Assembly: GCF_040616545.1 (NCBI RefSeq)
Contig: NZ_CP156688.1
Location: 620,001-684,000, forward strand
DNA length: 64,000 nucleotides
DNA from: Akkermansia muciniphila
GTDB taxonomy: Bacteria > Verrucomicrobiota > Verrucomicrobiia > Verrucomicrobiales > Akkermansiaceae
Direction of reading: 5' to 3'
Shown in pieces: positions 32,489-51,337 of the stretch. A model generated the notes under the pieces. It ran no database searches, was not told the origin of the DNA, and saw only the letters and a list, made by a program, of their open reading frames with translations. Each line of letters opens with the position of its first letter. Position 1 is the first letter of the stretch. The translations under genes were made by a program, and so were the position numbers.

Positions 32489-32646
32489 AAAACGCGGCGT
32501 CACAGGGCGGCGCACCCCCGCATTCCGCCGGAATCACGGAATCCGCAGCCTTCATATTCCTTTCCATTCCAGGAAACTTTTCATGAAATGGACGGAAAGC
32601 CGCATTCCCTGAAATATTGAAGGAGCGGCCCGCGTTTTTATATAGG

Positions 32647-35196
32647 ATGAGATTTTTTAAAAGCGTTTTTTACTGTGTCCTTTCCGTTGCCTCGCTTCAT
32701 GCGGCACAGGCTGCGCCGCCCAATGTGGTTCTGATCAATGCGGATGACCTGGGCTGGGCGGAAGTAGGCTGCTACGGGCAGAAGAAGATTAAAACCCCCA
32801 ATATCGACAAGCTGGCCTCCGAAGGGCAGCGGTGGGTTTATTTCTATTCCGGCGCCCCGGTCTGCTCCCCCTCCCGCAACGTGCTGATGACCGGCAAGCA
32901 TACAGGCAACTGCGACGTGCAGGACCTGAAGCGCGTGGACGCCGGCGAGAACTGGCGCAACCTCAAGGGAGACTGGCCCATCCGGGAGGAAACCTACACC
33001 CTGCCGGAAGCCATGAAAAAGGCCGGTTACGCCACGGCGGTTTTCGGCAAATGGGGCATCGGCGATTTCGGCTCCACCGGAGCGCCCGACAAGCACGGAG
33101 TGGACAGGTTCTACGGCTACACGGACCAGAAAGCCTGCCACACCTATTATCCGCCCCACCTCTGGAACGACGGGAAGAAGGAAGTCCTGAACACCTCGCT
33201 CACTCCCGCCACCATCGGACACGGCTCCCAGCCGGAAGGGGAAGTGCTGGCGGATACCTACCGGGCCGAGCAGCACAGTTCCGATCTTATTGCAGACAAA
33301 ATGCTGGAATTCGTAAAGGAAAAGGCCCACGGGAAGAAGCCGTTTTTCCTGTATTACGCGCCCCTGGAACCCCACGTGGCCATGCAGCCCCTCCAGGAAT
33401 GGATTGACCGCTATCCCCGTGAATGGGACAAGCGGCCCTACCGCGGCAACCAGGGCTACCTGCCCCATCCGCGCCCCCGCGCCGCGTATGCCGGCATGAT
33501 CTCCCAGATGGATTACAATGTGGGCCGCCTGCTGGACACGCTGAAAGCCTGCGGTCTGGAAAAGAACACCATCGTCATCTTCACCAGCGACAACGGCACC
33601 ACGCACGACGTAGGCGGGGTGGACCACAACTTTTTCAATTCCGTAGCCAACCTGAAAGGGCTGAAAGGCCAGCTTTATGAAGGGGGCATCCGCGTGCCCG
33701 GCATCATCCGCTGGCCCGGAAAAATCGCTCCGGGGAAAACCATCTCACAGCCGGCCTTTCATGCGGACGTGATGCCCACGCTGTGCGCCCTGGCGGGAGC
33801 GGACGCCGGCACCCCGCTGGGGGTTGACCTCTCTCCCGTCCTGCTGGGTAAAAAATCCGCCCTGAAAGACCGGAAACCCCTGGTCTGGGCCGGAGGCGGC
33901 TACGGCGGCCAGGTGGCCGTGCGCTTTGACACGAAGAAAGTCATCCGCCGCAACCTGTTTCCCGGTAAAAAGCCGGACAACTGGGAGGTGTACGACATCA
34001 TGAAGGATCCTGCGGAGAAAAACGACATCTCCGCCGGAAACAGCGACCTCATTGACAGGGCCATCGCTATCCTGGACACGGAATACAAGCCCGCGCCCGG
34101 CTTCCCGGCCCTGCGCTACAAGGCTCCCGAACAGACGGCCAAATGGCCAAAAACAGATGGAGCCCCCGCGATCCGCGCACCCCGTCATTCTGCCCTTGAC
34201 GTGAAGCGCGCCGGGGGTAGTCTTTCACGCATGAGTCTGACCTCTTCCCTCCTTTCCAGGGTGCTCCATGGGGCGTCCTGCACCAGAGAAGAACTGATAG
34301 CCCTCAGCCGGGAGCCGCTGGAGGAACTGTGCCAGGCGGCCAACGCCATCCGGGAGCACTTCTGCGGAAATGTCTTCGACCTCTGCACCATCATCAACGG
34401 GCGCAGCGGCAAATGTTCGGAAAACTGCAAGTACTGCGCCCAGTCCGCCCACTACTCCACTGCCGTGGAGGAGTACCCCCTTTTAAGCGGCGAAGCCCTG
34501 CTGGCGGGAGCCAGGTATAATGACGAACGGGGCATCCTGCGCTATTCCATCGTCACCTCCGGCAAGAGGCTGACGGATGCGGACGTGGAGCAGCTTTGCG
34601 CCAGCTACAGGCACATTGCGGAACGGTGCGGCATTTCCCTCTGCGCCTCCCACGGGCTTATCTCCAAAAAGCACTGCGAACAGTTGAAGGCCGCGGGCGT
34701 CTCCCGCTACCACAACAACCTGGAAACCTCCCGCCGCAACTTCCCGAACGTGTGCACCACCCATACGTACGACGACAAGATACAGACCATCAAGTGGGCC
34801 ATGGAAGCCGGGCTGGAAGTGTGCAGCGGCGGCATCATGGGACTGGGGGAAACCCTGGAGGACCGGATAGACATGTATATGGACATCGCCGCGCTGGGCA
34901 TCAAGTCCGCCCCCATCAATTTCCTGACGCCCATCCCCGGCACGCCGTATGCGGACATGGTCCCGCTGGGGGAGGAAGACCAGCTGCGCATCGTGGCCCT
35001 GGTGCGGTTCATCATGCCGGACGGCTTCGTCCGCATCGCCGCAGGGCGCAACACCATGAAGGACCACGGCAGGAAAATCTTCATGTCCGGGGCCAATGCG
35101 GCCATCTCCGGGGATATGCTCACCACCTCCGGAGTCACCATCCGGGAAGATCTGGCCATGCTTGCGGAACTGGGCTATGAAGTCCGCATGAAGTAA
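32647..35196 (+). CDS. Cys-type sulfatase whose frame runs without stop into biotin synthase
   Basis: 849 codons, no stop. Residues 1-23 are a signal peptide ('FYCVLSVASLHAAQA'). Residues ~24-500 are a type I sulfatase: metal-binding 'NADDLGW', the formylglycine site Cys73 in 'CSPSRNVLMTG' and 'IFTSDNGTTHDVGG'. Formylglycine formation by an anaerobic maturase would be needed. Such enzymes remove sulfate from mucin-type or sulfated glycans outside the cytoplasm. After about residue 505 the translation ('PKTDGAPAIRAPRHSALDV') looks like untranslated spacer, then BioB begins at 34231. Either the sulfatase lost its stop codon or an indel joined the frames. ATG 32647 was chosen because the signal peptide begins there. 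Confidence 0.8.
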   Translation: MRFFKSVFYCVLSVASLHAAQAAPPNVVLINADDLGWAEVGCYGQKKIKTPNIDKLASEGQRWVYFYSGAPVCSPSRNVLMTGKHTGNCDVQDLKRVDAGENWRNLKGDWPIREETYTLPEAMKKAGYATAVFGKWGIGDFGSTGAPDKHGVDRFYGYTDQKACHTYYPPHLWNDGKKEVLNTSLTPATIGHGSQPEGEVLADTYRAEQHSSDLIADKMLEFVKEKAHGKKPFFLYYAPLEPHVAMQPLQEWIDRYPREWDKRPYRGNQGYLPHPRPRAAYAGMISQMDYNVGRLLDTLKACGLEKNTIVIFTSDNGTTHDVGGVDHNFFNSVANLKGLKGQLYEGGIRVPGIIRWPGKIAPGKTISQPAFHADVMPTLCALAGADAGTPLGVDLSPVLLGKKSALKDRKPLVWAGGGYGGQVAVRFDTKKVIRRNLFPGKKPDNWEVYDIMKDPAEKNDISAGNSDLIDRAIAILDTEYKPAPGFPALRYKAPEQTAKWPKTDGAPAIRAPRHSALDVKRAGGSLSRMSLTSSLLSRVLHGASCTREELIALSREPLEELCQAANAIREHFCGNVFDLCTIINGRSGKCSENCKYCAQSAHYSTAVEEYPLLSGEALLAGARYNDERGILRYSIVTSGKRLTDADVEQLCASYRHIAERCGISLCASHGLISKKHCEQLKAAGVSRYHNNLETSRRNFPNVCTTHTYDDKIQTIKWAMEAGLEVCSGGIMGLGETLEDRIDMYMDIAALGIKSAPINFLTPIPGTPYADMVPLGEEDQLRIVALVRFIMPDGFVRIAAGRNTMKDHGRKIFMSGANAAISGDMLTTSGVTIREDLAMLAELGYEVRMK
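34196..34223 (+). promoter_or_regulatory. candidate leaderless promoter of bioB
   Basis: TTGACG (34196-34201), a 16-base spacer and TAGTCT (34218-34223), with the -10 ending 7 bases before ATG 34231. It lies inside the apparent sulfatase-BioB linker, which supports independent expression of bioB. Confidence 0.5.
34231..35196 (+). CDS. bioB: biotin synthase (in frame with upstream sulfatase)
   Basis: 321 residues from ATG 34231 ('MSLTSSLLSRVLHG'). The radical-SAM cluster motif is 'GKCSENCKYCAQSAHY' (C-x3-C-x2-C). 'YHNNLETSRRNFPNVCTTHT' and 'GGIMGLGETLEDRIDM' match BioB, as does 'RIAAGRNTMKDHGRKIFMSG'. It inserts sulfur into dethiobiotin. BioA follows 29 bases later, so the two form a short biotin operon. 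The separate promoter and complete BioB length argue that the real product is this protein and not only the fused polypeptide. Confidence 0.9.
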   Translation: MSLTSSLLSRVLHGASCTREELIALSREPLEELCQAANAIREHFCGNVFDLCTIINGRSGKCSENCKYCAQSAHYSTAVEEYPLLSGEALLAGARYNDERGILRYSIVTSGKRLTDADVEQLCASYRHIAERCGISLCASHGLISKKHCEQLKAAGVSRYHNNLETSRRNFPNVCTTHTYDDKIQTIKWAMEAGLEVCSGGIMGLGETLEDRIDMYMDIAALGIKSAPINFLTPIPGTPYADMVPLGEEDQLRIVALVRFIMPDGFVRIAAGRNTMKDHGRKIFMSGANAAISGDMLTTSGVTIREDLAMLAELGYEVRMK

Positions 35197-36681: not shown

Positions 36682-37758
36682 ATGATACATTTAACCCCGT
36701 TCCGCAAACGTCCGGCGCTTTCCGCGCTGATGCTCCTCATTCTGGGCTCCGGCTTCTGCCAGGCCCAGGAAATGCTTACCGACTCCGCAAGGAAGGAAGC
36801 CTCCGAGTGGCTTAAGGAAGTCAAAGCAGGCTACCTGAACACCAGCTCCGCCCGTATCCAGAAGGCCGTGTCCGCCCTCACCACGGCCATCAGCACGGAA
36901 AACGCCGCCATGAAACTTTACGTGGACGCCATGAAGGACCGCTTCCTGAACCCCACCAGCATGATGTCCCACATGCTGAACCGGGGCGGCGGCGGGGGCT
37001 TCCGGATGATGCGCATGCCGGGTTCCGGAGGCAGGGGAGGCAACAACGGCGGCAACAGCAAGCCCGACAGCCCCAGCACCGCCTTTTCCAACTGGCGCAA
37101 GCAGAATACGGGGAACAACGTGGCCCCCGGTTTTAAAAAGGCCCTTCAGATGCAGTGCAAATGGATGCTCCTGTGTCTGAAAAAGGCGGATGCGGAGAAG
37201 AACGAACGTGAATTCAACGTTTCACCCAGCGTCCTGTCCATGCTGGATGAGATGGCCGCCAACGCCAAGGATGTGGGCGAACAGCTCCCCATGGTGGGCG
37301 GAGCCAGCGAGGTGATCCGTTCCTATCTGAACATCAGCGACTACCGCTCGGAAACGCTCCCGGACAACATGATGGACCTCAACACCATTTTTGACCGCGT
37401 GCTGCTGGCCCCCTACAAGGAGAAGAAGGATGTGGAAAACTTCCGGAAGCTCTGGAACAAGCGCATTGGCCTGGAAGCCACCCTGCTGCAGAACAATTCC
37501 GCCAGCGACAAAAAAACGGCGGAAGTGGAAAAAAACAATTTCCTGATCAAGAGACAGTGGGAACGGGAAAAAGCCTGCTTTGAGCTCGGCGACCAGGTGG
37601 CGGCTCTTGAAAAGATGAAGAGCCTGATTTCCGGCATCAAGGACCCCGCGGAAAAGCAGCGCGCCATCCGTGACTTGGAATTCCTGCTCCTTACCCCGGC
37701 GGAACAGGCAAAACTCCGGGAAGAACGCACGAACAACAGACGCGGCCCGCGTTTTTAA
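36682..37758 (+). CDS. secreted helical protein with Gly-rich insert, function unknown
   Basis: 358 residues with a signal peptide (residues 1-28, '...LGSGFCQAQ'). Residues ~35-75 and ~150-358 are charged, helical and coiled-coil-like ('RKEASEWLKEVKAGYLNTS', 'EKNNFLIKRQWEREKACFE'). Between them is a Gly/Arg/Met-rich low-complexity insert ('GGGGGFRMMRMPGSGGRGG') followed by Asn/Gly repeats. The end is strongly basic ('TNNRRGPRF'). No domain was recognised. It is a single-gene transcript followed by a terminator. Confidence 0.75.
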   Translation: MIHLTPFRKRPALSALMLLILGSGFCQAQEMLTDSARKEASEWLKEVKAGYLNTSSARIQKAVSALTTAISTENAAMKLYVDAMKDRFLNPTSMMSHMLNRGGGGGFRMMRMPGSGGRGGNNGGNSKPDSPSTAFSNWRKQNTGNNVAPGFKKALQMQCKWMLLCLKKADAEKNEREFNVSPSVLSMLDEMAANAKDVGEQLPMVGGASEVIRSYLNISDYRSETLPDNMMDLNTIFDRVLLAPYKEKKDVENFRKLWNKRIGLEATLLQNNSASDKKTAEVEKNNFLIKRQWEREKACFELGDQVAALEKMKSLISGIKDPAEKQRAIRDLEFLLLTPAEQAKLREERTNNRRGPRF

Positions 37759-37785: not shown

Positions 37786-37823
37786 CATCCCCGGTGTGCC
37801 GTGCGCACCGGGGATGCTGTTTT
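37786..37823 (+). terminator. intrinsic terminator after the 36682 gene
   Basis: CATCCCCGGTG (37786-37796) pairs perfectly with CACCGGGGATG (37806-37816) across 9 bases and is followed by a short T tract (CTGTTTT). It lies between convergent genes. Confidence 0.85.
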
Positions 37824-37858: not shown

Positions 37859-39616
37859 CTACCTGCCGGGCTGGAACCACGTCTTGCGCAGGCGGTAAAC
37901 CCGCAGCCCATGGATGTTTTCATCCAGATGCCACGCCGTACGTATGCCGTGCTGCTCCCAGATATGGCGGCTGAGCATCCTCATGAACTTGCTGTCCATG
38001 TCGGAATCGTCTCCCTGCGGAGTCAGGCAGACGATGTAAACGTTATCCCTGCACAGGTTCAGGGAAGACTGGCCCTCCCAGCCCATTTCCTTCAGCTTCC
38101 GCTGCACGGGCTTCAAGGGGAAATTCCAGCCGCCCAGCGTCACGACGTTCTTCCGGGAACAGCTCCATGCCTTGCGGAAGACGGACTGCCCCGGAGCCAG
38201 GTCATCAATGGTGCCTCCGGACATCTGGACGCAGAACAGGGAGTCCGGTTCACGGTCCACCCGCTCACACAGCAAACGCCCTGCATCCGGGGAAAAGGAT
38301 TCCAGGTTGGCCTCCCACACGGCGGCGCACGCCTGTGACAGGGAGACGGCAAACGCGCAGAACATGGGAACGCCGCCCGCCAGAGCCCCGCGCCCCGTCC
38401 ACTTGACGCGGATGGGGCGGTACTTCTCAGACCACAGCAGGCACAGCCCCGCAATCAGGAAGGTGGGATACACCACGCGGAAATACAGGCGGTCTATGCT
38501 GGACATGTACATCAGGATCAGCACCAGCAGGCCGCCCACGCACCACCGCAGCGCAGGAGCATCCCCGCGCCGGAAAGACACGCGGCAGGCCAGGCCGAAC
38601 AGAATCCAGCACGGAAGGAGGTCCATGATGGAATTCCAGGAAAACAGATGAAGGGCCTTTTCCGCACGGGCCCACATCCTGGGCCAGAATTCAGCGCCGT
38701 CCCGCGCCAGCAGGAGCCTTTCCAGATAATCCGTATTGAACACCCCCATATCGCAGTTGGTGAACATCCGCACCATTTTGATATCATTGGCAAACACGCC
38801 GTACTTCTCGCACTGGTACTCGCTCTCCTGCCTGATGGGGCATGTATCCGAGAGCTGCGCGCGGGCCTGGTTCCATGCCGCCACGTCACACCCCTCCAGC
38901 ACATTCCGGTGGGCGTACTTGTTATACTCATTCAGCCCGAAGGAGACGGCCAGCACGCAGGCCAGCGCAAGCCAGAGACGCCCGCGGGCAAGCAACTTCT
39001 CCCGGGACGGTTTAAACCCGTCCAGGCTTCCCGCCAGCAGGATGGCTCCCCAGAAGGCGTCGCACACCAGGGCGGCGTCCAGCCGGATCATGCTGCCCAG
39101 CACGCACAGGAAGCCCCCCAGGCATAGCTTCCTCCATGAGGAGACACCGTATTTCAGGCACATCAGCACCCCGGTGAACCCTACCAGAAAAGCGGCATGG
39201 CTGAATTGAAGGGCGGCGTAAAACCCGGGCATGATCAGCAGCCACACCAGCAGCAGGACCAGCGTATTGAAATCATACTTGCGCGCCTTGCGGGCATGCG
39301 CCGTCAACATCGTGAAAATGCCCGCGCCGCTGGACAGCGTGGCAAACGCCAGAAACACGGGCCAAACGGACAGGCCGCCCAGCACGGGGGCCGCTTTCAG
39401 CAGCAGCCCGGTCAGCAGGGGATTGACGAAAATGACGTGGGCATCCGCGTAGGAAGGATCGCCCCAGCCGTCAAGCACGGACGCAATCACCAGATCATCA
39501 TTGGATTGGTACGCCACGCCCACAATGCTCCAGGCCAGTACCAGCAGCAGGAGGTTGAACCATACGGGATGGAGCAGCGGAAAAAGCGATGTCCATCTCC
39601 AAACCTGTTTCAACAT
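37859..39616 (-). CDS. polytopic membrane protein, probable GT-C-type glycosyltransferase
   Basis: 585 residues from ATG 39616; a TTG two codons earlier is possible. At least nine hydrophobic segments, then a ~170-residue soluble C-terminal domain with several Cys. An acidic pair in the first loop ('SNDDLVIASVLDGWGDPSYA') is of the kind used as the GT-C active site. By context it would use a flipped lipid-linked sugar made by the minus-strand genes upstream (WecE-like, GNAT, GT2, SMR pair). A promoter lies just before it, so it can also be expressed alone. Specific function is unproven. Confidence 0.75.
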   Translation of the reverse strand: MLKQVWRWTSLFPLLHPVWFNLLLLVLAWSIVGVAYQSNDDLVIASVLDGWGDPSYADAHVIFVNPLLTGLLLKAAPVLGGLSVWPVFLAFATLSSGAGIFTMLTAHARKARKYDFNTLVLLLVWLLIMPGFYAALQFSHAAFLVGFTGVLMCLKYGVSSWRKLCLGGFLCVLGSMIRLDAALVCDAFWGAILLAGSLDGFKPSREKLLARGRLWLALACVLAVSFGLNEYNKYAHRNVLEGCDVAAWNQARAQLSDTCPIRQESEYQCEKYGVFANDIKMVRMFTNCDMGVFNTDYLERLLLARDGAEFWPRMWARAEKALHLFSWNSIMDLLPCWILFGLACRVSFRRGDAPALRWCVGGLLVLILMYMSSIDRLYFRVVYPTFLIAGLCLLWSEKYRPIRVKWTGRGALAGGVPMFCAFAVSLSQACAAVWEANLESFSPDAGRLLCERVDREPDSLFCVQMSGGTIDDLAPGQSVFRKAWSCSRKNVVTLGGWNFPLKPVQRKLKEMGWEGQSSLNLCRDNVYIVCLTPQGDDSDMDSKFMRMLSRHIWEQHGIRTAWHLDENIHGLRVYRLRKTWFQPGR

Positions 39617-39663
39617 AAGCAAATTCCCTGACTTTGGGGGCTATTCTCCCTGTCCGGGCCCGC

Positions 39664-39692
39664 ATACTAGAAACGGGGAAAATGAAAGTCAA
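39664..39692 (-). promoter_or_regulatory. promoter before the 37859-39616 membrane protein
   Basis: On the minus strand TTGACT (39692-39687), a 17-base spacer and TAGTAT (39669-39664), 47 bases before the ATG at 39616. It is one of the best promoter matches in the window. Confidence 0.6.
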
Positions 39693-39744
39693 GAGCCGAT
39701 CCCGGCGCACACGGCGGGAAAGTCAAAAGGCCATTACACCCGCC

Positions 39745-40089
39745 TCAGCGGTTCAGGCAGATAATGATGCCCGCAATAATCATCAGGTTTCCCCCTATCT
39801 TGCGCCAGGTAATCGGCTTGCCGAAAAAAATCCGGTCAAAGAAAAGGATGTACACGTACGCGGAACACTCCAGCACGTTCACCGTAATCATCGGCAGGTG
39901 GGACAGGCAGTAAAACGTCAGAAGGCAGCAGCCCAGGAAAATGGAATAGGCCGTCACGGTGGCCGGATTCACGAAGTAGGAAATGCCCGTCAGCCGTTCG
40001 TTCATGGCGGATTTTTTCAGAATCACCTGCGTGCACGACGCCAGGAAAACGGAAAACAGGTTCAGGCCGATGTAGAATTCCTCATTCAT
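39745..40089 (-). CDS. SMR/EamA-type half transporter, ArnF-like (second of pair)
   Basis: 114 residues from ATG 40089, chosen because GGAGG lies 6 bases upstream. Four hydrophobic helices make up the whole protein: 'FYIGLNLFSVFLASCTQVIL', 'TAYSIFLGCCLLTFYCL', 'ITVNVLECSAYVYILFF' and 'IGGNLMIIAGIIICL'. Size and pattern match ArnE/ArnF, the heterodimer that flips undecaprenyl-phosphate aminoarabinose. It overlaps the sister gene by 8 bases, so they are likely made and assembled together. Confidence 0.83.
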   Translation of the reverse strand: MNEEFYIGLNLFSVFLASCTQVILKKSAMNERLTGISYFVNPATVTAYSIFLGCCLLTFYCLSHLPMITVNVLECSAYVYILFFDRIFFGKPITWRKIGGNLMIIAGIIICLNR

Positions 40090-40450
40090 GCGCATCCTCC
40101 TCCGTGGAAACCAGAATAATGCCGCCGATGATCAACACCGCCCCTGCCGCCAGTGTCCAGGAGAGGGCTTCCCCCAGGCAGAGCCACGCCAGCAGGATGC
40201 CCCAGAGGACGACGGCGGAACGGTTGGCGTAAGCCACGCCCAGATTGAATTTTTTCAGCATCACCTGCCACCCCGCCGCATAAATGCCCAGCAGGAAAAG
40301 CACGCCGGCCAGAAAAGCGTACTTGCGCCAGTCCGTCCAGCCATAGGGGGCCGCCATGCGCCCCAGGACGGTATTCAGGGCGTAAACGACGAACAGAAGG
40401 TGAAGGACAAGGTAGTTGATCATAGGGGAAAAGAGCCGGGAGAAACTCAC
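40082..40450 (-). CDS. SMR/EamA-type half transporter, ArnE-like (first of pair)
   Basis: 122 residues if it starts at the GTG 40450 that overlaps the GT2 stop (GTGA); ATG 40423 would give a 113-residue form starting right at the first helix. Four membrane helices with 'NRSAVVLWGILLAWLCLGEAL' in the third and the EamA-like 'GAVLIIGGIILVS' in the last. It pairs with the next gene as a probable flippase heterodimer for a lipid-linked sugar. Confidence 0.83.
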   Translation of the reverse strand: MSFSRLFSPMINYLVLHLLFVVYALNTVLGRMAAPYGWTDWRKYAFLAGVLFLLGIYAAGWQVMLKKFNLGVAYANRSAVVLWGILLAWLCLGEALSWTLAAGAVLIIGGIILVSTEEDAHE

Positions 40451-41385
40451 TCATACCGGCGCGCCACTACCACGGCGGGCCTGTGCTTGGTTTCATTGTA
40501 AATCTTGGAGATATAAATGCCGATGACCCCCAGGCACATCAGGATCAACCCGCCCACCAGCCAGATGGAGGCCACGGAGGAGGCCCACCCCGGAGGGGCC
40601 ACGTTATAAAGGAACTGACGGACAAGCACCCACGCGACGTACAGCATGGCCACCAGCGTCACCCCCATGCCGAAGTACGAAATGTACACCAGCGGCCTGG
40701 CGCTGTAGGAGACCACGGAATTCACCGCCAGCGCCATCTTCTTGCGGAACGTATACGTGGTGGGGGAGGTGGAGGCCTTCTTCACCATGCACGGCACCTG
40801 CCGGAAGCCGGCGGAAACGCACAGGCCGAAAAAGAACGGTTCCCGGTCCTGGAACTTCAGCATTTCCCGCAGGAAACGCGCGCTCATCAGCCGCGCCGTG
40901 ACCATGTTCTTTGTAATCTGCTGGTCGGAAAGCAGGTTGAACACCGTATAAAACAACTCTCCGGAGACGGCTTCAAACAAGCCGCCCTTCCTCTTCTCCT
41001 GCACGCCGTAAACTACATCCGCACCGGTGCCGACCATTTCCCGGGAAAAATCCCCCAGCCATTCGGGAGCTTCCTCCAAATCACTGTCAATCAGGAACAC
41101 GCGTTCTCCACGCGCTTCCTCGCACGCCACGTACATGGCCAGATGGTGGCCAAAGTTACGGGACAAATCCACCACGCGCACGCGGCTATCCTTCTCCCGT
41201 TCCTTCAGGGCTTCTTCCAGTCCTCCCCGCGGGCAGCCGTCATTGACCAGTACTATCTCCGTGCGGGAGGGATCGTAACCCGCCTCAAGCGCGGCGGCGA
41301 AGCTGCGGGAACAGAACTCCGCCAGATAGGAGCCCGTGCAGTACACGGTAGCCACGATGGACAGTTGAACCTGTGGATCAGTCAT
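40447..41385 (-). CDS. GT2 glycosyltransferase, ArnC/GtrB-like
   Basis: 312 residues from ATG 41385, which overlaps the GNAT stop by 4 bases. GT-A motifs: 'LSIVATVYCTGSYLAEF', 'IVLVNDGCPRGG' and 'RVFLIDSDLEEAPEWLGDF', the last with the metal-binding Asp-Ser-Asp. Two C-terminal membrane helices are typical of enzymes that put a sugar on undecaprenyl phosphate (ArnC, GtrB). By context the sugar is the N-acetylated 4-amino-4,6-dideoxyhexose made by the two genes upstream. The donor is inferred. Confidence 0.88.
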   Translation of the reverse strand: MTDPQVQLSIVATVYCTGSYLAEFCSRSFAAALEAGYDPSRTEIVLVNDGCPRGGLEEALKEREKDSRVRVVDLSRNFGHHLAMYVACEEARGERVFLIDSDLEEAPEWLGDFSREMVGTGADVVYGVQEKRKGGLFEAVSGELFYTVFNLLSDQQITKNMVTARLMSARFLREMLKFQDREPFFFGLCVSAGFRQVPCMVKKASTSPTTYTFRKKMALAVNSVVSYSARPLVYISYFGMGVTLVAMLYVAWVLVRQFLYNVAPPGWASSVASIWLVGGLILMCLGVIGIYISKIYNETKHRPAVVVARRYE

Positions 41386-41882
41386 AACGTTTTTACGTAC
41401 ATCAGAACGCGTTTTTTCTCTCCGTTTTTCCAGCATTCCCCATCCTCTTCCGGAGCATGGGCAAACCCCATGCGCTCATGAAAGCGGATGGACGCGGCGT
41501 TGTCATCCAGAATCCGGGCGCACAGCTTTTCCAGCCCCAGTTCCTCCGCGGCCAGCTCCATCATCCGCGCATACGCGGCGGAAGCCGGACGCAGTTCCCT
41601 GAATCCCCGGTCATACAGGTAAATGCCTATCTCCCCGCGGCGCGCGGCGCGGTCAAACCACGGCAGGTACACCAGCCCCAGCGGGATCCGGTCCGCGTAA
41701 ATCACGCAGGCAAGGGCATCATCCCCGCGGATATTCCTTTCCAGCCATGCCCCGTGCTGGTCCTCCGTTACCTGGTCCAGCAGAAAAAAAGGGCTGACCG
41801 CGTCGGAATTGCGCCACATGCGGAGCTGCATGCGCATGGACTCGTCCACATCGGACACGTTAACCAGGTGAATCTTCATCAT
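41382..41882 (-). CDS. GNAT-family acetyltransferase, amino-sugar type
   Basis: 166 residues from ATGATG 41882, overlapping the WecE-like stop by 4 bases. A RimJ-like GNAT fold: 'MRMQLRMWRNSDAVSPFF', 'GEIGIYLYDRGFRELRPASA', 'LCARILDDNAASIRFHERMGF'. Next to a 4-amino-sugar transaminase it is best read as the sugar N-acetyltransferase, functionally like WecD though not obviously the same subfamily. The role is from context. Confidence 0.8.
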   Translation of the reverse strand: MMKIHLVNVSDVDESMRMQLRMWRNSDAVSPFFLLDQVTEDQHGAWLERNIRGDDALACVIYADRIPLGLVYLPWFDRAARRGEIGIYLYDRGFRELRPASAAYARMMELAAEELGLEKLCARILDDNAASIRFHERMGFAHAPEEDGECWKNGEKKRVLMYVKTL

Positions 41883-43018
41883 GCTTCAATCTCTTCCAGG
41901 CCAAACCCGGCCCGCAACACTTCCCGGCAGCCCTCTTCCCCCAGGTCATAATACAGGGGAAGCCTCAGCAGCGTTTCACTGGTGCGGTCCGTATGCGGCA
42001 TGGGTCCGGCACAACGCCCGAACCTCACCCCGGCGGGGGAGGAATGAAGGGGAATGTAATGGAACACGGCCTTGATTCCGCATTCCGCCAGCTTGCCAAT
42101 CAGGCTGGTGCGCTCCTCGAGAGAATTGAGCAGGATGTAATACATGTGCGCGTTGTGCGAGCAGTGTTCCGGAACGCACGGACGCCGCAGGACGCCCCGT
42201 TTTTCCAGAGGTTCCAGCGCGCGGTGGTACATGTTCCACCACTTCAGCCTTTCCCCGTTGATCTCCTGCCCGTGTTCAAGCTGGGCGTACAGATAGGCGG
42301 CCGTCATTTCCCCGGGAAGATAGGAAGAGCCTACGTCCACCCAGGTGTACTTGTCCACCTGCCCGCGGAAAAACTTGGCCCGGTTGGTCCCTTTTTCCCG
42401 GATAATCTCCGCACGTTCCATCAATTCCGGATCATTCACCAGCAGGGCGCCCCCTTCACCTGAAATAACATTCTTGGTCTCATGGAAGCTGTAGCACCCC
42501 AAATGGCCGATGGAACCGAGCCTGCGCCCCTTATAGCAGGAACCTACGCCCTGGGCCGCATCTTCAATCACGTACAGGCGGTGCCGCCGGGCTATATCCA
42601 TGACGGCGTCCATATCGCACGCCACTCCCGCGTAATGAACCACGCAGATGGCGCGGGTGCGGTCCGTAATGGCCGCTTCAATCAGTGTCTCATCAATGTT
42701 CTGGGTATCCGGCCTGATGTCCACGAAAACGGGAACGGCGCCGCGCAGGACGAACGCGTTCGCCGTGGAAACGAACGTGTAGGAAGGCATGATAATCTCG
42801 TCCCCCGGCTGGCAGCCGATCAGCAGGGCGGCCATTTCCAGAGCCGCGGTTCCGGAATGGACCAGCAGGGCCTTCCCGGCTCCGGTGCGCTCCACGAGCA
42901 GTTCATGGCATTTTTTCGTATAATAGCCGTCTCCGCATAAATGGGCACGCTGGATGGCGTCCCGGATATAATCCAGTTCGGGACCGTGTTTGTGAGGTTG
43001 GTTGAAGGGAATCTCCAT
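41879..43018 (-). CDS. dTDP-4-amino-4,6-dideoxygalactose transaminase (WecE/RffA-like)
   Basis: 379 residues from ATG 43018 ('MEIPFNQPHKHGPELDYI'), which matches the family start; ATG 43042 adds eight residues. Close resemblance to E. coli WecE: 'SYTFVSTANAFVLRGAVPVF', 'RPDTQNIDETLIEAAITD', 'VIEDAAQGVGS' and the PLP Lys in 'YSFHETKNVISGEGGA'. It aminates the 4-keto group of dTDP-4-keto-6-deoxyglucose to give dTDP-Fuc4N. It is the first gene of the overlapping minus-strand set that would acetylate, lipid-load and flip this sugar. Confidence 0.92.
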   Translation of the reverse strand: MEIPFNQPHKHGPELDYIRDAIQRAHLCGDGYYTKKCHELLVERTGAGKALLVHSGTAALEMAALLIGCQPGDEIIMPSYTFVSTANAFVLRGAVPVFVDIRPDTQNIDETLIEAAITDRTRAICVVHYAGVACDMDAVMDIARRHRLYVIEDAAQGVGSCYKGRRLGSIGHLGCYSFHETKNVISGEGGALLVNDPELMERAEIIREKGTNRAKFFRGQVDKYTWVDVGSSYLPGEMTAAYLYAQLEHGQEINGERLKWWNMYHRALEPLEKRGVLRRPCVPEHCSHNAHMYYILLNSLEERTSLIGKLAECGIKAVFHYIPLHSSPAGVRFGRCAGPMPHTDRTSETLLRLPLYYDLGEEGCREVLRAGFGLEEIEA

Positions 43019-43146: not shown

Positions 43147-44268
43147 CTAGACCTTGATGAAGGTCCGGTTTTTGTACATGTAATACAGCACACCCCAAAT
43201 CAGGGCGTAATTGCACAAATAAAAGACAAACCGGTTCGCATCCCCGAAGCACTCGCTGAACCCGGTGAACAGCACGCGGGAGAAATTGCGCGTGGGGGGG
43301 CACAACTCCGCCCAGATGTAGACGAAAATGGCGTTGCTCCCGATCACGGAGAAAAAGAACGTCAGCCAGTTCAGCTTCAGCACGTCCGTCAGCAGGTAGA
43401 ACAGGGCCAGCAGGAAATAGCACCAGCCCGCCGCCCACAGCACCATGGAGCTGGTAAACAGATGCTTGATGATCGGAAAATCCAGGCTCCAGACATATCC
43501 CAGAGCCAGGCACCCCGCGCCTGAACCCAGAAGCCAGAGCAGTTTTTTCCCGTGCCCCTCCACCCGTTTCAATATCTGGCCGCCCAGCAGCCCGAGCATG
43601 GTCATGGCCCCAAAGCCGAACTGGGCCAGAATCCACGCATAATTCGTTCCATCCTGCCAGTCCCCCATCAGGTACTTGTCCAGCAGCAGGGCCAGGTTAC
43701 GCCCCGGTTCCAGCATCCCCGCCGGACATGAACCCACTACGGGGTCGGAAAAGGGAACAAACTTCATGACCAGCCAGTAAACGGCCAGCAGCAGCCCCGT
43801 GACCACCACCTGCCACCGGATGGACAGATGAAGCAGGCAGACGGCCGCTATCAGGTAGCCGGAGGCGATGGCCTGGAGCGTATTGCAGTACAAGGACATT
43901 TTGGACGGTTCAAAACTCAACAGGTTGCCCTGCACCACCATGCCCAGCAAAAACAGCACCACCACCCGCTTGGCCACCTTCAGGTAAATCTTCCACATGG
44001 GTTCCGTGCCGATGCGCCTGGAAAAGGAAAACGGCATGGCCGTACCCACAATAAACAGGAAGAGGGGCATCACCAGGTCCCAGGCCGCAAACCCTTCCCA
44101 GTTCACGTGCGTGCTGTGCTTCAACAGCCATGCGGGGCTCTGGTCATAAAAAAGATTAATGCCGGCCACTACCAGGGCCAGCCCTCCCGTCAGGAAAAAC
44201 ATGTCAAAACCCCGCAGGGCGTCAATGGCCGCAATCCTCTGCGGCTTGGTACCGGAAGCTGAACTCAT
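43147..44268 (-). CDS. membrane acyltransferase, HGSNAT/NagX-like (DUF5009 type)
   Basis: 373 residues from ATG 44268 ('MSSASGTKPQRIAAIDALRG'); the ORF extends further but over the divergent SprT-like region. 'IDALRGFDMFFLTGGLALV' and 'WEGFAAWDLVMPLFLFIVG' are marks of the heparan-alpha-glucosaminide acetyltransferase-like family, with ~10 membrane helices. These proteins move acetyl groups across the membrane onto glucosamine-type sugars. It precedes the amino-sugar operon on the same strand by 130 bases, so it may act on the same glycan or on imported amino sugars. Confidence 0.82.
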   Translation of the reverse strand: MSSASGTKPQRIAAIDALRGFDMFFLTGGLALVVAGINLFYDQSPAWLLKHSTHVNWEGFAAWDLVMPLFLFIVGTAMPFSFSRRIGTEPMWKIYLKVAKRVVVLFLLGMVVQGNLLSFEPSKMSLYCNTLQAIASGYLIAAVCLLHLSIRWQVVVTGLLLAVYWLVMKFVPFSDPVVGSCPAGMLEPGRNLALLLDKYLMGDWQDGTNYAWILAQFGFGAMTMLGLLGGQILKRVEGHGKKLLWLLGSGAGCLALGYVWSLDFPIIKHLFTSSMVLWAAGWCYFLLALFYLLTDVLKLNWLTFFFSVIGSNAIFVYIWAELCPPTRNFSRVLFTGFSECFGDANRFVFYLCNYALIWGVLYYMYKNRTFIKV

Positions 44269-44446
44269 GGCGATATCCCCTATTACGGAGCCCTGCCCTC
44301 CAACCTTTCCGCACGCTTTCTTTTTCCACGATCCTGCAAAAAAAACGGCTGTTTCCGTAAAAAACCATACCCTCCGCGGCAACTCCGTCATGATGTCCTT
44401 CTCCGTATTTCCTTCCTTGCGTTCCGTGCTATGCTTCCCCCACAGC

Positions 44447-44977
44447 ATGACCATCGGGAACCTCCAATCCGGCAACCGCGACAGCTTCCGGGACATTGAA
44501 ATCTACGCCCGGCTGAAAATGGATGAACTGGGCCTCCATGACTGGAAATTCGGCTGGGACCGTGCCCGCAGGCGGCTGGGCGTATGCCGCCTTCTGGAAA
44601 AAAGCATCTCCCTCTCCGTCCACTTTGTCCGCGCCAATCTGGAAGTCCCCCATGAAATCCGTGACACCATCCTGCATGAGATAGCCCACGCCCTGGCATG
44701 GACCCGGCACGGAGAACGCACCCACGGCGCGCGGTGGAAACAAATATGCCGGGAAATAGGGGCCGTCCCGTGCGCTGCTGCCAAACCGGACGCCATCCGC
44801 GTCACCACGTACAAATACCTCCTGCGCTTGAAAACGACGGGAGAGGTTGTGGGAAAGTACCACCGCCGTCCCGCCTTCGCCAAACACCTCAAGCGCATGG
44901 CCCTGAAAGGCCGCCCCGACACGCTGGGGCAACTGGAATTGATTCCCAGCGAAAAACAGGATACGTCATTATCATAA
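44447..44977 (+). CDS. SprT-like zinc metallopeptidase
   Basis: 176 residues from ATG 44447; longer in-frame starts run into the divergent gene. The gluzincin motif is 'ILHEIAHALAW' (H-E-x-x-H) with a third ligand likely in 'RHGERTHGARWKQICREIGA', the standard SprT layout. The C-terminal part is basic ('YHRRPAFAKHLKRMALKGR'). SprT-like proteins in bacteria are poorly understood; eukaryotic relatives cut DNA-protein crosslinks. It marks the left edge of the Rhs island. Confidence 0.85.
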   Translation: MTIGNLQSGNRDSFRDIEIYARLKMDELGLHDWKFGWDRARRRLGVCRLLEKSISLSVHFVRANLEVPHEIRDTILHEIAHALAWTRHGERTHGARWKQICREIGAVPCAAAKPDAIRVTTYKYLLRLKTTGEVVGKYHRRPAFAKHLKRMALKGRPDTLGQLELIPSEKQDTSLS

Positions 44978-44999
44978 AAGCTCACCTTCTGCATTCTTC

Positions 45000-45155
45000 C
45001 AGCGGGTCATCAGGGAGTTGTACCGGCATTCGTATGTGGCCATTGTTTGACCATTCCATCCTGACCGTTGCCGATGGCAGTCACAAGATTGAGTTGGAAT
45101 GGTAGATATTACTGCGAAGCAGGGCGTTGGGATAGGAGAGCCGGTAAAAGAAAAA
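45000..45155 (-). pseudogene. degraded rhs core fragment
   Basis: Read on the minus strand, this piece gives 'YRLSYPNALLRSNIYHSN' and, after a frameshift, 'LNLVTAIGNGQDGM'. These align with the intact Rhs stretch near 52870-52950 ('YLTYPNGMVRCNTYHS', 'LNLVTAIGY'). At DNA level it matches + strand 52840-52960 clearly. Only ~150 bases remain. Boundaries are approximate. Confidence 0.75.
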
Positions 45156-45230
45156 CCCCGATCTTGTCACATGCGGTTTGCCGCCTCTATCCACAGACAT
45201 TATTTCTTCATTACTTTTACTTTAAAGTAT

Positions 45231-46694
45231 CTATTGTACTTCAGGCTTTTCATCCGATATAACAGGATACACAAATTGATGTAAAAACTCCGAATGCAGA
45301 ATAAGAGCAATATTCATGATCATATCCTGGAATTTGGTCAAATTTTCATCATTCACAATGGACGAACTTTTTTTCCATTCCAGATCATTGGGCATTCGGA
45401 TATAAAATAGTTCGGAATCCGATATTTCTTTTTTCCGTTGAAAACGTAATTGGGAAAACAAGGTTTTCATTTTTGAAAACAGATCATTTGAAATGATAAG
45501 TCCTCTTGTGACACCATCCAAACTAAGAGCCATTTCCCAATACTCTTGTTGAGATAATTTACGCATCCCATATTGATGTTCCAGTTGCTCGTAACCTGCT
45601 GGAACCGGCAATGTCTTATGAAAAAATAAATCATTGAACAAGTGCATTTTATCATTTTTGATCATGGCGTAATAAATATACTTCCCACGAATTGACAACC
45701 CTGCTGTATATTGGAAATCCAAAAATAAAATCCGGATGCTGTCGGGATAATCTTTCGGGAATAATATATTCCATAACCGCTTCGAATCAAACTGATCAGC
45801 CAAATAATTATGATTATCTTTATTTTTTAATTCATTATTTGATTTGAATTGATGGGCAATCCATAATTGCTCGTATACCCCAAGATGAGCAAACTCAGAC
45901 GTATTATAAATCAATCTATATAAATACTGATATTTTCTGACTACGCGACTAATATACTTGCTGCACCACACAAGCCATGATTTGTCTTTCAAATCAGTTC
46001 TGCCGGTGAAATATGAACATAAGGCAACCCATGGCATATTTTGGTATTGGATCATGGAAAGGGTTCCTCCGTATTCCTGCATATTCAAGGAACCTATATC
46101 TACCCACTCCATTCCAAGTCTTCTCGGTGAATGTTGAAATAGACTCATGGTATCTGAAAGCTGTTTCAAAAGACATGGCAATAGTTGTATGGCTTGCAGT
46201 TCAGGAGCATTGATATAATCAGTCAAACTGTACATCCAGCAGGGCATTAAACTTAGGTATTCATACCAGAAATGCGTGAACGGGTAATAATGCCGATACA
46301 GGAGTCGCTGGCGACATATCCTCCATGTCTTAATGCCATACGGGTTACTGGGCAAATCCGGTGATATGGGAAATTCCAGCCATGAGAGAGAACCTGGTTC
46401 AGGATAGATTTTCCGCAATTCTGCTTCCAACAAGTTGTTCTTATCTTTTTCCAAATTTCCCCAGCATGGATCACTCACCAAGTAAAAAATCTGTATATCA
46501 CTATCGTTAAGACTCTTGCTGCTGGAATCTGTAGAAGATACAAATATATTATCTAAGTTTACAGAAGACTCTCGCAGGTGATCATCCCCCCACGAAAAAG
46601 AACCTAAACATAAATATATTATTAAGATATTAGTACCTAGTCTTCCCAGATTTCGGAAGACGTGGCTTCGGTAGTAAAGGTTTTCCGTGTTCAT
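45231..46694 (-). CDS. unknown protein of the Rhs island, probable exported
   Basis: 487 residues, strongly AT-rich. An N-terminal hydrophobic stretch ('TNILIIYLCLGSFSWGDD') looks like a signal peptide or anchor. The rest is rich in aromatic and charged residues (Tyr, Trp, Lys) with no recognised domain. Its start overlaps the 3' end of the displaced Rhs tip remnant (46630-46694), the place where an immunity or partner gene of that toxin would lie. It is large for an immunity protein. Function unknown. Confidence 0.6.
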   Translation of the reverse strand: MNTENLYYRSHVFRNLGRLGTNILIIYLCLGSFSWGDDHLRESSVNLDNIFVSSTDSSSKSLNDSDIQIFYLVSDPCWGNLEKDKNNLLEAELRKIYPEPGSLSWLEFPISPDLPSNPYGIKTWRICRQRLLYRHYYPFTHFWYEYLSLMPCWMYSLTDYINAPELQAIQLLPCLLKQLSDTMSLFQHSPRRLGMEWVDIGSLNMQEYGGTLSMIQYQNMPWVALCSYFTGRTDLKDKSWLVWCSKYISRVVRKYQYLYRLIYNTSEFAHLGVYEQLWIAHQFKSNNELKNKDNHNYLADQFDSKRLWNILFPKDYPDSIRILFLDFQYTAGLSIRGKYIYYAMIKNDKMHLFNDLFFHKTLPVPAGYEQLEHQYGMRKLSQQEYWEMALSLDGVTRGLIISNDLFSKMKTLFSQLRFQRKKEISDSELFYIRMPNDLEWKKSSSIVNDENLTKFQDMIMNIALILHSEFLHQFVYPVISDEKPEVQ

Positions 46695-47240
46695 CTAAAA
46701 TAACAATATTTGCTTCTTTATTTGATTGGGTGTCATCGATCTGTCGCGCTACCAAGATAGCTGTGAAATCTTCTTCTGAGAATTGTGTTTTTATATCTTG
46801 ATCCAACTTTTTTATTCTGAGAGTTTTACGAGCTGGTTTCGGAGTACTTTGAATAACATATGCAGGGACACTTTCAGGATTGTCCATTTTAGGAACTCTA
46901 TGTCCATTAGCCCATACAAATCCATATCCAGTACGTTCATCTTCTGGAAAAAGGGAACCAGGTCCAAATACGCCTTCCAACCTTCCGTCTAGAACGAATC
47001 CTGTTTTTTCATTTATACCATCGTGTTTGAATACGATATTGTGAGAATGCCAAATCGCTACTTCACAATAATTTTTTGGAGCTACTTCTGGTTGGCGGTG
47101 ATATGTTGTACTCTCTGCTTCGTGATTACTTACTTTATATGAATAGGAATTAGCTGTTTTTTTCTAAATAAAGCTCCTCCATGCTCGACAGTTTGCCTGC
47201 CACTTAACATCTTAAAATTTGCTTTTTTAATAATTTTACT
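46630..47240 (-). pseudogene. frameshifted Rhs C-terminal tip (possible DUF4329-like domain)
   Basis: An open frame from 47160 down to 46630 has no credible start and is cut off upstream by a TAG at 47163-47165. The upstream coding sequence continues in another frame ('SIFYAALSKIIKKANFKML'); one extra A in the A-run near 47160 would join them. The pieces include 'EHGGALFRK', 'EVAIWHSHNIVFKHDG' and 'GYGFVWANGHRVP', a pattern seen in DUF4329-type Rhs tips with a His-x-His pair. The parent core is the rhs pseudogene at 47236-49297. Read as a variable toxin tip thrown out of frame. Confidence 0.6.
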
Positions 47241-49297
47241 TAGTGCAGCATAAAATATGCTTAGATACTTCTTCTTTCAAGAATTTTGTTTCATTATCAT
47301 AATCATCCACCAAAGCAGGCTTTAATCCTAATAAGTCTAATTTATTTATCACAGCATTTCCTGAAAATGCATATAAATTTGCTCCCCCCTGTTCATCAAT
47401 AGGATCCCTGTTAATCCATCTGCCGTCTGTAGGATTCAGGTGGCGGTAATTGTAGTAGATCAGGCCAAGCTCGTCGTCCATGAACTCGAAGGAAAACCTG
47501 AACTTGTTTTCCTGTGCCCTGTCGCCTGCGCCGTGATTAGGGCTCCAAGGGGAGCATACTCATAGCGCGCCCTTCGCGTCTGCTTACAGTCGAAGATGGA
47601 AGTGACGTTCTTCAGAGCATCGTGCATGAAGCAAAAATGTTCCTTTATCCCCGTACTATTATCCTTCCATTTGGTCATCATCAGGATACGCGAGGCCATC
47701 GGTTCCGTCGGATCCCACAGGTAGGTTTTCACAAGCCTGAAAGAAGGGCTCATCAAATCCAGTTGGGCCACCTGCAAATAGCCCCGGTAAAGGAACCAGC
47801 AATGGCTGGCTGTTAAGCCGTTGACGGTGATCTTCTTGCTGAAGCGTCTTCCCTGGTAGTCGTAGCCGCAGGTAAGGACAGTCCGTCCGTCTTTGCTGGT
47901 AAAAATTACAGGGCGGTCATTGGCATCACAGCTCACTTTCCAAATGCCGGTAGAAGTCTTGATTCTGGTCTGATTGCCGTCTGCATCGTAAGTGGGAATG
48001 AATGGTTCCGTATTTCTGGTAATGTCCGTGTACTGGTTGAGCCGGTTGGCATTGTAGGATACTTCTTCCTCCAGTTCCCGTGCAGTCTTGCGGTTGCCGA
48101 TGTTGTCGTACTGGTAGCTGTAGATGCCTCTCTCCCTGAGTTGATCTCCAGTCAATTCACTGCGGCTGTTGGAGGTAAAATCTCTTACCATGGCAGGAAT
48201 GGCAGCGTCCCAGGAGTCCCGGCGTTGAACTGGACGCGTCAGGGCATCATACTGGTATTCACGGCCGGCGACCATGCCTCCATTTCCCTGCTTCTCATAG
48301 CCAATGGAAGCCACGAGGTTGAGCCTGAGATGGTAGATGTTGCTGCGAACCATGCCGTTGGGGTAGGTGAGCCGGTTGAGGAAGCCGCTGGTTTCATCGT
48401 ATTCCCAAGTGAAGGAAGAGGCCAAATCATCCAGATTCATCCCATTCATGCCACCTTTCCGATCGTAGTCAAGATGGGAGTGCTGCACCGTGCGGGTCCC
48501 GGTCATGAGGCGGTAGCCGGCGGAACGTCCGAACGTGTCGAAGTCTTCCTGAAGGCTGCTTTCCACCGTTCCAAAGGAAGTGTCCCGAACCATTCTGCCG
48601 TAACTGTCATGGGAAAGTTCCCGGAGGCCGGAGGCGTCCCGGATAAAAGTCATCTGCCCGAGATGGTTGCAGGAGAACTCCCATCCCGGAGTATCGTCGC
48701 TGTGGGAGACGGAGACAAATTCTCTTGTCAATGGAGCATAGGCGTACGTCGTGACAACGCCTCTGGCCTTGGTGACGGTTTCCGGACGATTGAACTGGTC
48801 GTAGGTTCTGAGAACGCAGGAGCCGTCGGCATAGGTTTTCTTCAGTTCCATTCCCGTGGCCTCGTCGTAGAGCCAGGTGGTAGTGTCCCCGTCGGCGTGG
48901 CCAAAAGGAGCAGTGGTGATGTCCCCTTCGTCCACCCTGAAGGTGGTCAGGGTCACCATATGATCGGCCTCGTCGTAGGCGAAGCATGCGGGCTGGAGGG
49001 ACGTGCCGTATTCGGCTATCTTTCTTCCCTGGATGTCGTAGGAATAGCAAGTAGTACCTCCCATGGAATCGGTGATGGAAGCCACAGCATCGCAGCAGGG
49101 AAGGTAGCTGGTGGTGGTTACGTTGCCGGCTGCATCCGTGGTTTTGACTGGTCATCCGTCTAAGTCAGTTCCAATCGTTGTGACATTGTCCTGGGCATCC
49201 GTCTGATGCAGAATCATGCCTGCAGAGGTATAGGAGCGTTCCTGCGAGGAATGAATGCCCGCATGGTTCGTCTGGCTCACTGTAAAACCATCAATGA
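47236..49297 (-). pseudogene. 5'-truncated rhs gene with nonsense and frameshift mutations
   Basis: It aligns through its length with the C-terminal core of the intact Rhs at 51338: 'YSYDIQGRKIAEYGT', 'YANPNG'-type YD repeats, 'YYNYRHLNPTDGRWINRDP'. Damage: the 5' half is missing and replaced at ~49297 by an atpD fragment; TGA at 49152-49154 where the intact gene has an Arg codon; and a frameshift near 47530 so that the end of the core (47236-47481) is read in another frame, stopping at a TAA after '...VSKHILCCTK'. It cannot make a full Rhs protein. Its tip differs wholly from the intact gene, so it is an older allele. Confidence 0.85.
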
Positions 49298-49300
49298 CCA

Positions 49301-50157
<857 letters not shown>

Positions 50158-50372
50158 CAGAGCAAGAGTCTGCCTAGTGACGTTACCAAAGGTGTTGTAT
50201 TCATAGAACGTAGGCACCATGGAGACAGAAGAACTGCTGTTGTCCGTGTCGTGTTGCGTGCCGACGTTATGATCTCTGCGGTAGTAGAGGAATCCTACGG
50301 TCGTCGGAGGGGCTGGACGACGGTCTGCCCGAAGCCGTTGTTCAACGTTTGGGACAAGATGGTGTCTGGGCT
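50158..50372 (-). pseudogene. second degraded rhs fragment
   Basis: The minus strand reads 'DTILSQTLNNGFGQTV', matching 'LSRSLENGFGQTVRQ' of the intact Rhs, then in another frame 'TTVGFLYYRRDHNVGTQHD' and 'YEYNTFGNVTRQTLALAD', which has YD-repeat character but no counterpart in the intact gene here. Stop codons and a frameshift make it dead. It derives from the middle of a different rhs allele. Confidence 0.75.
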
Positions 50373-50560
50373 ATATCATATAGCAAATGGTTCCCTTTAA
50401 CTTTTACAGGATCTGTTATAGTCTTGCAATTTCAGGATTCTATCTTCGCCAGTCTCATGTAAAAGACCGCAGTGCATCAGATAGAGCTACAGAGACCAGA
50501 TATGACAGCAGTGCGTTCACGGATAAGTAATAGAAAACAGATGTTATTGAGATTAGTAGT
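50373..50560. other. spacer without recognisable gene
   Basis: Mixed-composition DNA between the rhs remnant and the terminator of the intact rhs operon. No open frame or repeat was recognised. Confidence 0.5.
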
Positions 50561-50598
50561 CCTAAAAAACATCCGGCATGCAAACAGCATGCCGGATG
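50561..50598 (-). terminator. intrinsic terminator of the intact rhs operon
   Basis: A perfect 12-bp stem CATCCGGCATGC (50570-50581) / GCATGCCGGATG (50587-50598), loop of 5; on the minus strand it is followed by TTTTTTAGG. It ends leftward transcription from the rhs and 50702 genes. Confidence 0.88.
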
Positions 50599-50701
50599 AT
50601 GAAATAAATAATTGTCAGATTGTATTTAAATAATTTTTTATTTTTTCATGAGAAATACAATTTTTTTATTATATTTTTTGAGAGGAAAGGAAATGGATTC
50701 T

Positions 50702-51316: not shown

Positions 51317-51337
51317 CTTATTTTTTAATGATTAATA

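Follow-up and report, generated by a model that had tools for sequence, protein, structure and literature searches.

A six-gene Akkermansia operon predicted to encode a donor-dedicated three-component glycosylation system

The window analysed in this work is a 64 kb stretch of an Akkermansia muciniphila genome (G000:C1:620001-684000, within a single contig of 3.06 Mb), and it contains a six-gene operon on the minus strand, read from position 43018 down to 37859. All six open reading frames were present when the window was re-read, and the operon is confirmed. In order, the genes encode a WecE-type transaminase, a GNAT N-acetyltransferase, a GT2 glycosyltransferase, two small proteins that are likely an EamA/SMR pair (SMR1 and SMR2), and a large polytopic membrane protein presumed to be a GT-C glycosyltransferase. 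The operon is a variant of known three-component glycosylation that has its own donor genes. We consider it probable that it forms a donor-dedicated system, in which undecaprenyl phosphate (Und-P) carrying 4-acetamido-4,6-dideoxygalactose (Fuc4NAc) is made, flipped and used on an acceptor that is probably not lipooligosaccharide (LOS).

In the proposed pathway, RmlA and RmlB, which are encoded elsewhere in the genome, would make thymidine diphosphate (dTDP)-4-keto-6-deoxyglucose, WecE would convert this into dTDP-4-amino-4,6-dideoxygalactose (dTDP-Fuc4N), and the GNAT would acetylate the 4-amino group to give dTDP-Fuc4NAc. The GT2 would then load the sugar onto Und-P at the cytoplasmic face, and SMR1 and SMR2, acting as a pair, would bring Und-P-Fuc4NAc to the periplasmic face. 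Finally, the last protein, acting as a GT-C enzyme, would transfer the sugar from it to a polymer or protein of the envelope, probably not the main LOS. The gene set, the coupling of its first five genes, its conservation, the WecE membership, the GT2 type, the presence of RmlA and RmlB and the link of this GT2 lineage to WecE are seen in the sequences, whereas the GNAT reaction, flipping, GT-C activity and acceptor are predictions.

Donor sugar and the GtrB-type glycosyltransferase

By its profile scores the transaminase is a clear WecE, as the initial annotation of this DNA had proposed. It reaches 609.7 bits on the NCBIfam equivalog NF008687 (dTDP-4-amino-4,6-dideoxygalactose transaminase; cut-off 375) and 598 bits on TIGR02379 (cut-off 435), the next model being PseC at 215.6 bits; among solved structures its closest relative is 4piw (E 1.2e-149). 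Since the enzyme is of this type, the sugar is most likely Fuc4N. RmlA and RmlB are present, one each over cut-off, in adjoining genes at G000:C1:300443-302359, and the described route to dTDP-Fuc4NAc runs from RmlA through RmlB and WecE to WecD (PMC7439462). Elsewhere in the genus, a genome that has no match to the last gene of the operon (G070) carries a 60% identical WecE relative with an internal stop codon at a contig end (G070:C55:62-1009).

The second protein is a GNAT, as in the initial annotation, and of the amino-sugar type: it scores 54 bits on Acetyltransf_3, over the Pfam cut-off, and its best model is PseH (60.2 bits; equivalog cut-off 93.1), while no WecD model matched at an E threshold of 0.1. 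Fuc4N is thus predicted to be N-acetylated, probably by this PseH-like enzyme. Because it is PseH-like and not WecD-like, however, the scores do not fix its substrate and acyl donor, and a sugar with other stereochemistry or another acyl group, such as 4-acetamido-4,6-dideoxyglucose (Qui4NAc) or another N-acyl Fuc4N, has to be considered, with the rest of the scheme unchanged. This would also fit the naming of TIGR02379 for a gluco product, although it is the wecE model of the enterobacterial common antigen (ECA), and the presence of a different acetyltransferase type in the place of the GNAT in relatives from other phyla. We nevertheless regard it as quite unlikely in view of the transaminase score, which is far over the cut-off of the galacto equivalog and far above that of PseC.

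The GT2 is predicted to be a GtrB-type enzyme, homologous to GtrB, that transfers its sugar to Und-P. It matches the GtrB-like family phrog_841 (4e-54) and the sll0501 structure 5ekp (E 2e-37), and it has two C-terminal hydrophobic segments by simple hydropathy, the method used here for all segment counts. The PgfS and ArnC models stay below cut-off (73.1 against 529 bits for ArnC). The GT2 of the initial annotation is borne out as a GtrB/ArnC-type enzyme. Its five closest named relatives, which share 87-98% identity with it, all come from records of Akkermansia or Akkermansiaceae. The genome of the window contains a second GtrB-like GT2 (L079 9021-9833, G000:C1:2081027), which is 28% identical to the first and has no WecE within the 18 kb fetched.

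Association of the glycosyltransferase lineage with WecE

The assignment of a donor to the GT2 draws on its relatives. In a first tree of 43 rows, the GT2 of the window, 12 other WecE-linked GT2s and one unlinked row (L103) formed a clade of 14 rows (support 100/100) that spans Verrucomicrobiota, Pseudomonadota and Bacteroidota. WecE was in the locus for 13 of these 14 rows and for none of the other 29. The clade has the motif DxDLEE where the remaining rows mostly have DADLQD. In a search of 387 genomes of the phylum with a profile of this subfamily, 15 had a GT2 above 360 bits, the next score being 255.

For a follow-up on new genomes, 20 stretches were fetched, consisting of four new DxDLEE members and 16 intended controls from the phylum that lie outside the DxDLEE clade. 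Among the controls, five had WecE (55-62% identity) within 0.85 kb of the GT2 with a GNAT gene in between, forming a GtrB-GNAT-WecE triplet; the dTDP-Fuc4N acyltransferase WecD was the best model for the triplet GNATs in all four of the five that were scanned, below cut-off in each case. The new DxDLEE members had no WecE inside the fetched stretches (0/4), and their genomes carry WecE elsewhere at 61-65% identity, in one case 9.6 kb off on the same contig. The DxDLEE clade alone is therefore weakened as a marker of WecE linkage.

A second tree, of 53 rows, was built after ten near-duplicates and thinned relatives had been dropped (L050, L061, L063, L065, L067, L069, L072, L039, L042 and L045, of which one, L050, is WecE-linked). 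In it, a branch with support 100/97 sets apart 22 rows, made up of the DxDLEE clade (17 rows, 100/100, 12 linked within the fetched stretch) and the clade of the triplets (5 rows, all linked, 100/99). All 17 WecE-linked rows of this tree fall in the 22-row set, with WecE 0.5-12.3 kb away, the window included. A true WecE was in the locus of none of the 31 rows outside it, although this is in part a weak negative, because 9 of these rows had less than 8 kb fetched (22 had at least 10 kb); the 32% DegT relative that lies 6.8 kb from the GT2 in L178 is not a true WecE. GT2 and WecE are 0.7-0.85 kb apart in at least nine genomes (G173, G401, G243, G430, G099, G388, G273, G351 and G164).

The association is also seen at the level of whole genomes. 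All 15 genomes with a GT2 above 360 bits contain a WecE relative (E 1e-90 or better), compared with 45 of the 372 other genomes of the phylum (p 1.4e-13, ignoring kinship); counted by genus, the figures are 4/4 and 32/193 (p 0.001). The DxDLEE letters themselves were read in the tree and follow-up rows and not in all of these 15 genomes. What counts against the association is that 5 of the 22 rows are not closely linked, because neither the four new DxDLEE members nor L103 (within 10 kb) has WecE nearby. We therefore propose the association for the wider 22-row set, together with the co-occurrence by genome, and in this form it supports a donor-dedicated three-component system.

In the nine relatives from other phyla, the neighbouring genes comprise varying sets of WbqC, methyltransferases, an acetyltransferase (of the hexapeptide type in the two scanned), EamA or GtrA, RmlA, RmlB and WecE. 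Six of the nine GT2s (L055, L058, L103, L104, L106 and L107) have an EamA/SMR or GtrA gene in their vicinity; none was seen for L057 and L105, and L056 was not scanned. The acetyltransferase and flippase types thus vary while WecE and the GT2 are constant, as expected from a shared donor.

Taken further, the DxDLEE clade and its sister triplet clade may together form a family of polyprenyl-phosphate Fuc4NAc synthases not described before, which is present in at least three phyla, is fed by WecE, and in Akkermansia heads a dedicated three-component system decorating a non-LOS surface glycan or glycoprotein. We put this forward tentatively, at somewhat short of even confidence. No description of Und-P-linked Fuc4NAc was found among the titles and abstract beginnings listed from the open-licence PMC library. 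Together with the link to WecE, the DxDLEE signature would allow specificity to be tested directly in a class of glycosyltransferases for which the donor is usually difficult to predict, and related production lines seem to be present in distant bacteria.

Membrane proteins, acceptor and related systems

The initial annotation described the two small proteins as SMR-type half flippases, and they are likely an EamA/SMR pair, the case being better for SMR2 (29.2 bits on EamA; cut-off 28.2) than for SMR1 (26.3 bits). SMR1 has four hydrophobic segments and SMR2 two over the threshold. A profile of SMR1 and related EamA proteins gave weak matches to LicB (E 0.0017) and EmrE (E 0.018), SMR2 matched the ArnF model at E 0.0026, far under its cut-off, and the SMR2 profile found no match in the PDB. 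The equivalog cut-offs of ArnE (14.5 against 92 bits) and ArnF (18.2 against 99 bits) were missed, and no GtrA match was found among the six genes. Paired SMR genes carry opposite charge biases according to a review (PMC9574504). SMR2 shows a clear positive-charge bias, with lysine and arginine counts of 1 against 4-6 on its two sides; the case for an antiparallel pair is only half made, because the bias of SMR1 is near zero.

The last protein has ten hydrophobic segments and an Asn-Asp-Asp motif (N39-D40-D41) after the first of them, which is invariant in 12 of 12 members. GT-C enzymes are described as proteins of 7-13 membrane helices in which a small outer domain usually follows helix 1 (PMC11127046). 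From topology, motif and position we infer a GT-C enzyme, which retains the GT-C-like label of the initial annotation as a presumption, since the protein matches no family over cut-off, had no relative in the searches outside the genus and gave no usable model. A weak match to the putative glycosyltransferase LA_3751 was found in 4 of the 12 members (best E 0.00058). No relatives outside the genus were found in the 387 phylum genomes or in a scan of viral contigs. Four proteobacterial loci also encode a large membrane protein, but a profile comparison of it with the last protein gave a probability of 0.1 percent, so that homology between the two is not claimed. One genome (G068) has a distant paralogue of the last gene, with no GT2 or SMR relative within the 14 kb fetched.

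Several of these results weigh against the proposed pathway as a whole. The GNAT is under every equivalog cut-off. SMR1 is under the EamA cut-off and nearly without charge bias, and its structural model is weak (predicted local distance difference test, pLDDT, 60), with no Foldseek match at E 0.001 and with EmrE and Gdx-Clo appearing only at E 6 and above. The last protein matches no family over cut-off (Pfam up to E 10, PHROGs, PDB sequences), and its AlphaFold model, made from a 12-row alignment, is unusable (pLDDT 38). A partial or mixed set, in which WecE, GNAT and GT2 cooperate while SMR1 and SMR2 export a different substrate and the last gene encodes no transferase, would accommodate both the SMR scores near or under the cut-offs and the isolation of the last gene. 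However, the block is co-conserved in 11 related loci, where SMR1 overlaps SMR2 in 11/11 and GT2 in 5/11, the ratio of nonsynonymous to synonymous substitution rates (dN/dS) is 0.07-0.15 for SMR1, SMR2 and the last gene, and related GT2s of other phyla mostly have a flippase-type gene nearby, as noted above. We consider such a set very unlikely and retain the complete pathway.

The initial annotation predicted decoration of lipopolysaccharide (LPS) or another envelope polymer, and for LPS this was not borne out. Strain HW07, which has a rough-type LPS and 99.96% average nucleotide identity to ATCC BAA-835, is listed with fucose, galactosamine, glucosamine, glucose, mannose, heptose and Kdo as its only LPS sugars (PMC12527988). 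The operon is intact in the genome G040, which we take to be the type strain MucT/ATCC BAA-835 from the agreement of gene coordinates: amuc_2077 is printed at 2,526,716-2,527,498 (PMC13343947), and this interval encloses the Poly_export domain of G040 at 2,526,857-2,527,144. LPS or LOS is disfavoured as the acceptor, because the type strain has the operon and yet the published LOS lists no such sugar.

The same pathway could still act on LOS, modifying only some of the molecules or operating only in certain growth conditions. A. muciniphila produces a heterogeneous LOS, for which fourteen oligosaccharides are reported, drawn with Kdo, fucose, heptose, hexosamine, hexose and phosphate (PMC13135019), and the HW07 sugar analysis was done against standards (PMC12527988). 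Furthermore, mass comparison shows that hexosamine with fucose and hexose with dideoxy-hexosamine are isomeric combinations, so compositions from mass spectrometry (MS) cannot separate the two; because of these isomers, and because the printed OSF ion is 22 ppm off its stated composition, mass alone does not exclude the sugar. On the other side, the two major LOS oligosaccharides are stated to be determined by nuclear magnetic resonance (NMR) and MS (PMC13135019), and in view of the reported fucose and the NMR assignments a 4-amino-4,6-dideoxyhexose is unlikely as a main LOS component. With the HW07 sugar list and the intact operon of the type strain added, we consider this reading unlikely. 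For the preferred pathway with a non-LOS acceptor, the type strain is predicted to carry a surface sugar absent from the published LOS chemistry, which points to capsule or protein glycans. Akkermansia makes a Wzy-type capsule from cps1 (PMC13343947), which is a possible acceptor, and a glycoprotein may be the alternative.

As stated in the initial annotation, the gene set combines parts of the Wec, Arn and Gtr pathways, but this combination is not unique, since other genomes of the phylum contain GtrB-GNAT-WecE triplets. The Arn pathway (ArnB, ArnC, ArnE/ArnF, ArnT) offers a similar 4-amino sugar logic, with a transaminase, a GT2 acting on Und-P, two SMR proteins and a polytopic protein. It uses a transient N-formyl group, whereas an N-acetyl group is expected in Akkermansia, where decoration of lipid A is not indicated; the Akkermansia proteins miss the cut-offs of the ArnB, ArnC, ArnE and ArnF equivalogs, and ArnA and ArnD are absent from the six genes. 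The ECA Wec pathway (PMC7439462) shares the WecE step and the N-acetylation of dTDP-Fuc4N, but the Akkermansia GNAT is not WecD-like, there is no Wzx or Wzy among the six genes, and transfer is expected to go to Und-P by the GT2, not to lipid II by WecF.

O-antigen glucosylation by GtrA, GtrB and Gtr(type), and the wider class to which it belongs (PMC11127046), resembles the operon in its GtrB-type GT2, small presumed-flippase proteins and large polytopic protein, and in the sugar expected on Und-P. In Akkermansia, however, the presumed flippase is an SMR/EamA pair and not GtrA, the donor genes for WecE and GNAT are included, and the sequence of the last protein places it in no known family. 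The CsbB/GtcA/YfhO systems of teichoic acid glycosylation, with YfhO as third partner (PMC7389260), likewise use a C55-phosphate-linked sugar, a small flippase and an extracytoplasmic transferase. In L176, from the phylum of Akkermansia, a YfhO gene (124 bits) abuts a GtrB-GNAT-WecE triplet, overlapping the GT2 start by 4 bases. The last gene of the Akkermansia operon does not match YfhO, and the acceptor class differs.

Operon layout and neighbouring genes

The features are listed in Table 1. Coupling of the genes by overlaps of 4-8 bases, given in the initial annotation for the first five, is confirmed. WecE-GNAT, GNAT-GT2 and GT2-SMR1 overlap by 4 bases, the last of these with the GTG start of SMR1 (otherwise there is an 11-base gap); for SMR1-SMR2 the overlap is 8 bases when 40089 is taken as the start of SMR2. 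Coupling does not extend to the last gene, because its start is 128 bases past SMR2.

Table 1. Features of the operon and its downstream end
Feature	Coordinates	Strand	Evidence
WecE-type dTDP-4-keto-6-deoxyglucose 4-transaminase (predicted product dTDP-Fuc4N)	41879..43018	-	NF008687 609.7 bits, TIGR02379 598 bits, 4piw
GNAT N-acetyltransferase, likely 4-N-acetylation of dTDP-Fuc4N	41382..41882	-	Acetyltransf_3 54 bits over cut-off, 4-base overlap with each neighbour
GtrB/ArnC-type GT2, predicted polyprenyl-phosphate sugar synthase, DxDLEE subfamily	40447..41385	-	phrog_841, 5ekp, trees
SMR1, likely SMR/EamA-type half flippase 1	40082..40435 (ATG; GTG start at 40450 also possible)	-	EamA 26.3 bits, four hydrophobic segments
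SMR2, likely SMR/EamA-type half flippase 2	39745..40089 (start 40095 also possible)	-	EamA 29.2 bits
Polytopic membrane protein, presumed GT-C glycosyltransferase	37859..39616	-	Topology, N39-D40-D41, weak LA_3751 match
14-pair hairpin, possible terminator, between operon end and convergent gene	37786..37816	+	

A search for the same gene order had been proposed in the initial annotation; the whole block is syntenic and intact in all 11 related loci checked (L052 and L102 are the same contig). GNAT and GT2 overlap by 4 bases in every one of them, SMR1 and SMR2 by 8 bases in eight and 4 bases in three, and WecE and GNAT by 4-7 bases in ten (55 in one, an effect of start choice). GT2 and SMR1 overlap by 4 bases in five and are separated by 12-30 bases in six. 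In four comparisons, dN/dS was 0.05-0.25 across the six genes, with the GNAT highest, which indicates purifying selection on the operon. The last gene as query matches 12 of 76 genomes of the genus, including the type strain. In two genomes that lack the operon (G015 and G013), the neighbourhood comparison showed no conserved flanks, so gain and loss cannot be distinguished.

The gene next upstream of WecE, in the same orientation, encodes a DUF5009/NagX-like membrane acetyltransferase (43147-44496). It was considered as a seventh part and rejected, since relatives are present in genomes of the genus that lack the operon; G017 has broken extra NagX/DUF5009 copies nearby. At the other end, a 358-amino-acid protein (36682-37758) is convergent with the operon and 81-99% identical in relatives, with no Pfam match at E 0.01. 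The region 44001-57376 encodes RHS-repeat proteins (541 and 2012 amino acids) and two frames with no Pfam match at E 0.01, and the G+C content is lowered over 44001-54000 (0.36-0.54 per 2 kb step, against 0.55-0.62 in most of the window). A plus-strand frame at 32617-35196 unites a sulfatase with the biotin synthase BioB; the MucT genome (L113) encodes the two separately, in frames of 513 and 331 amino acids.

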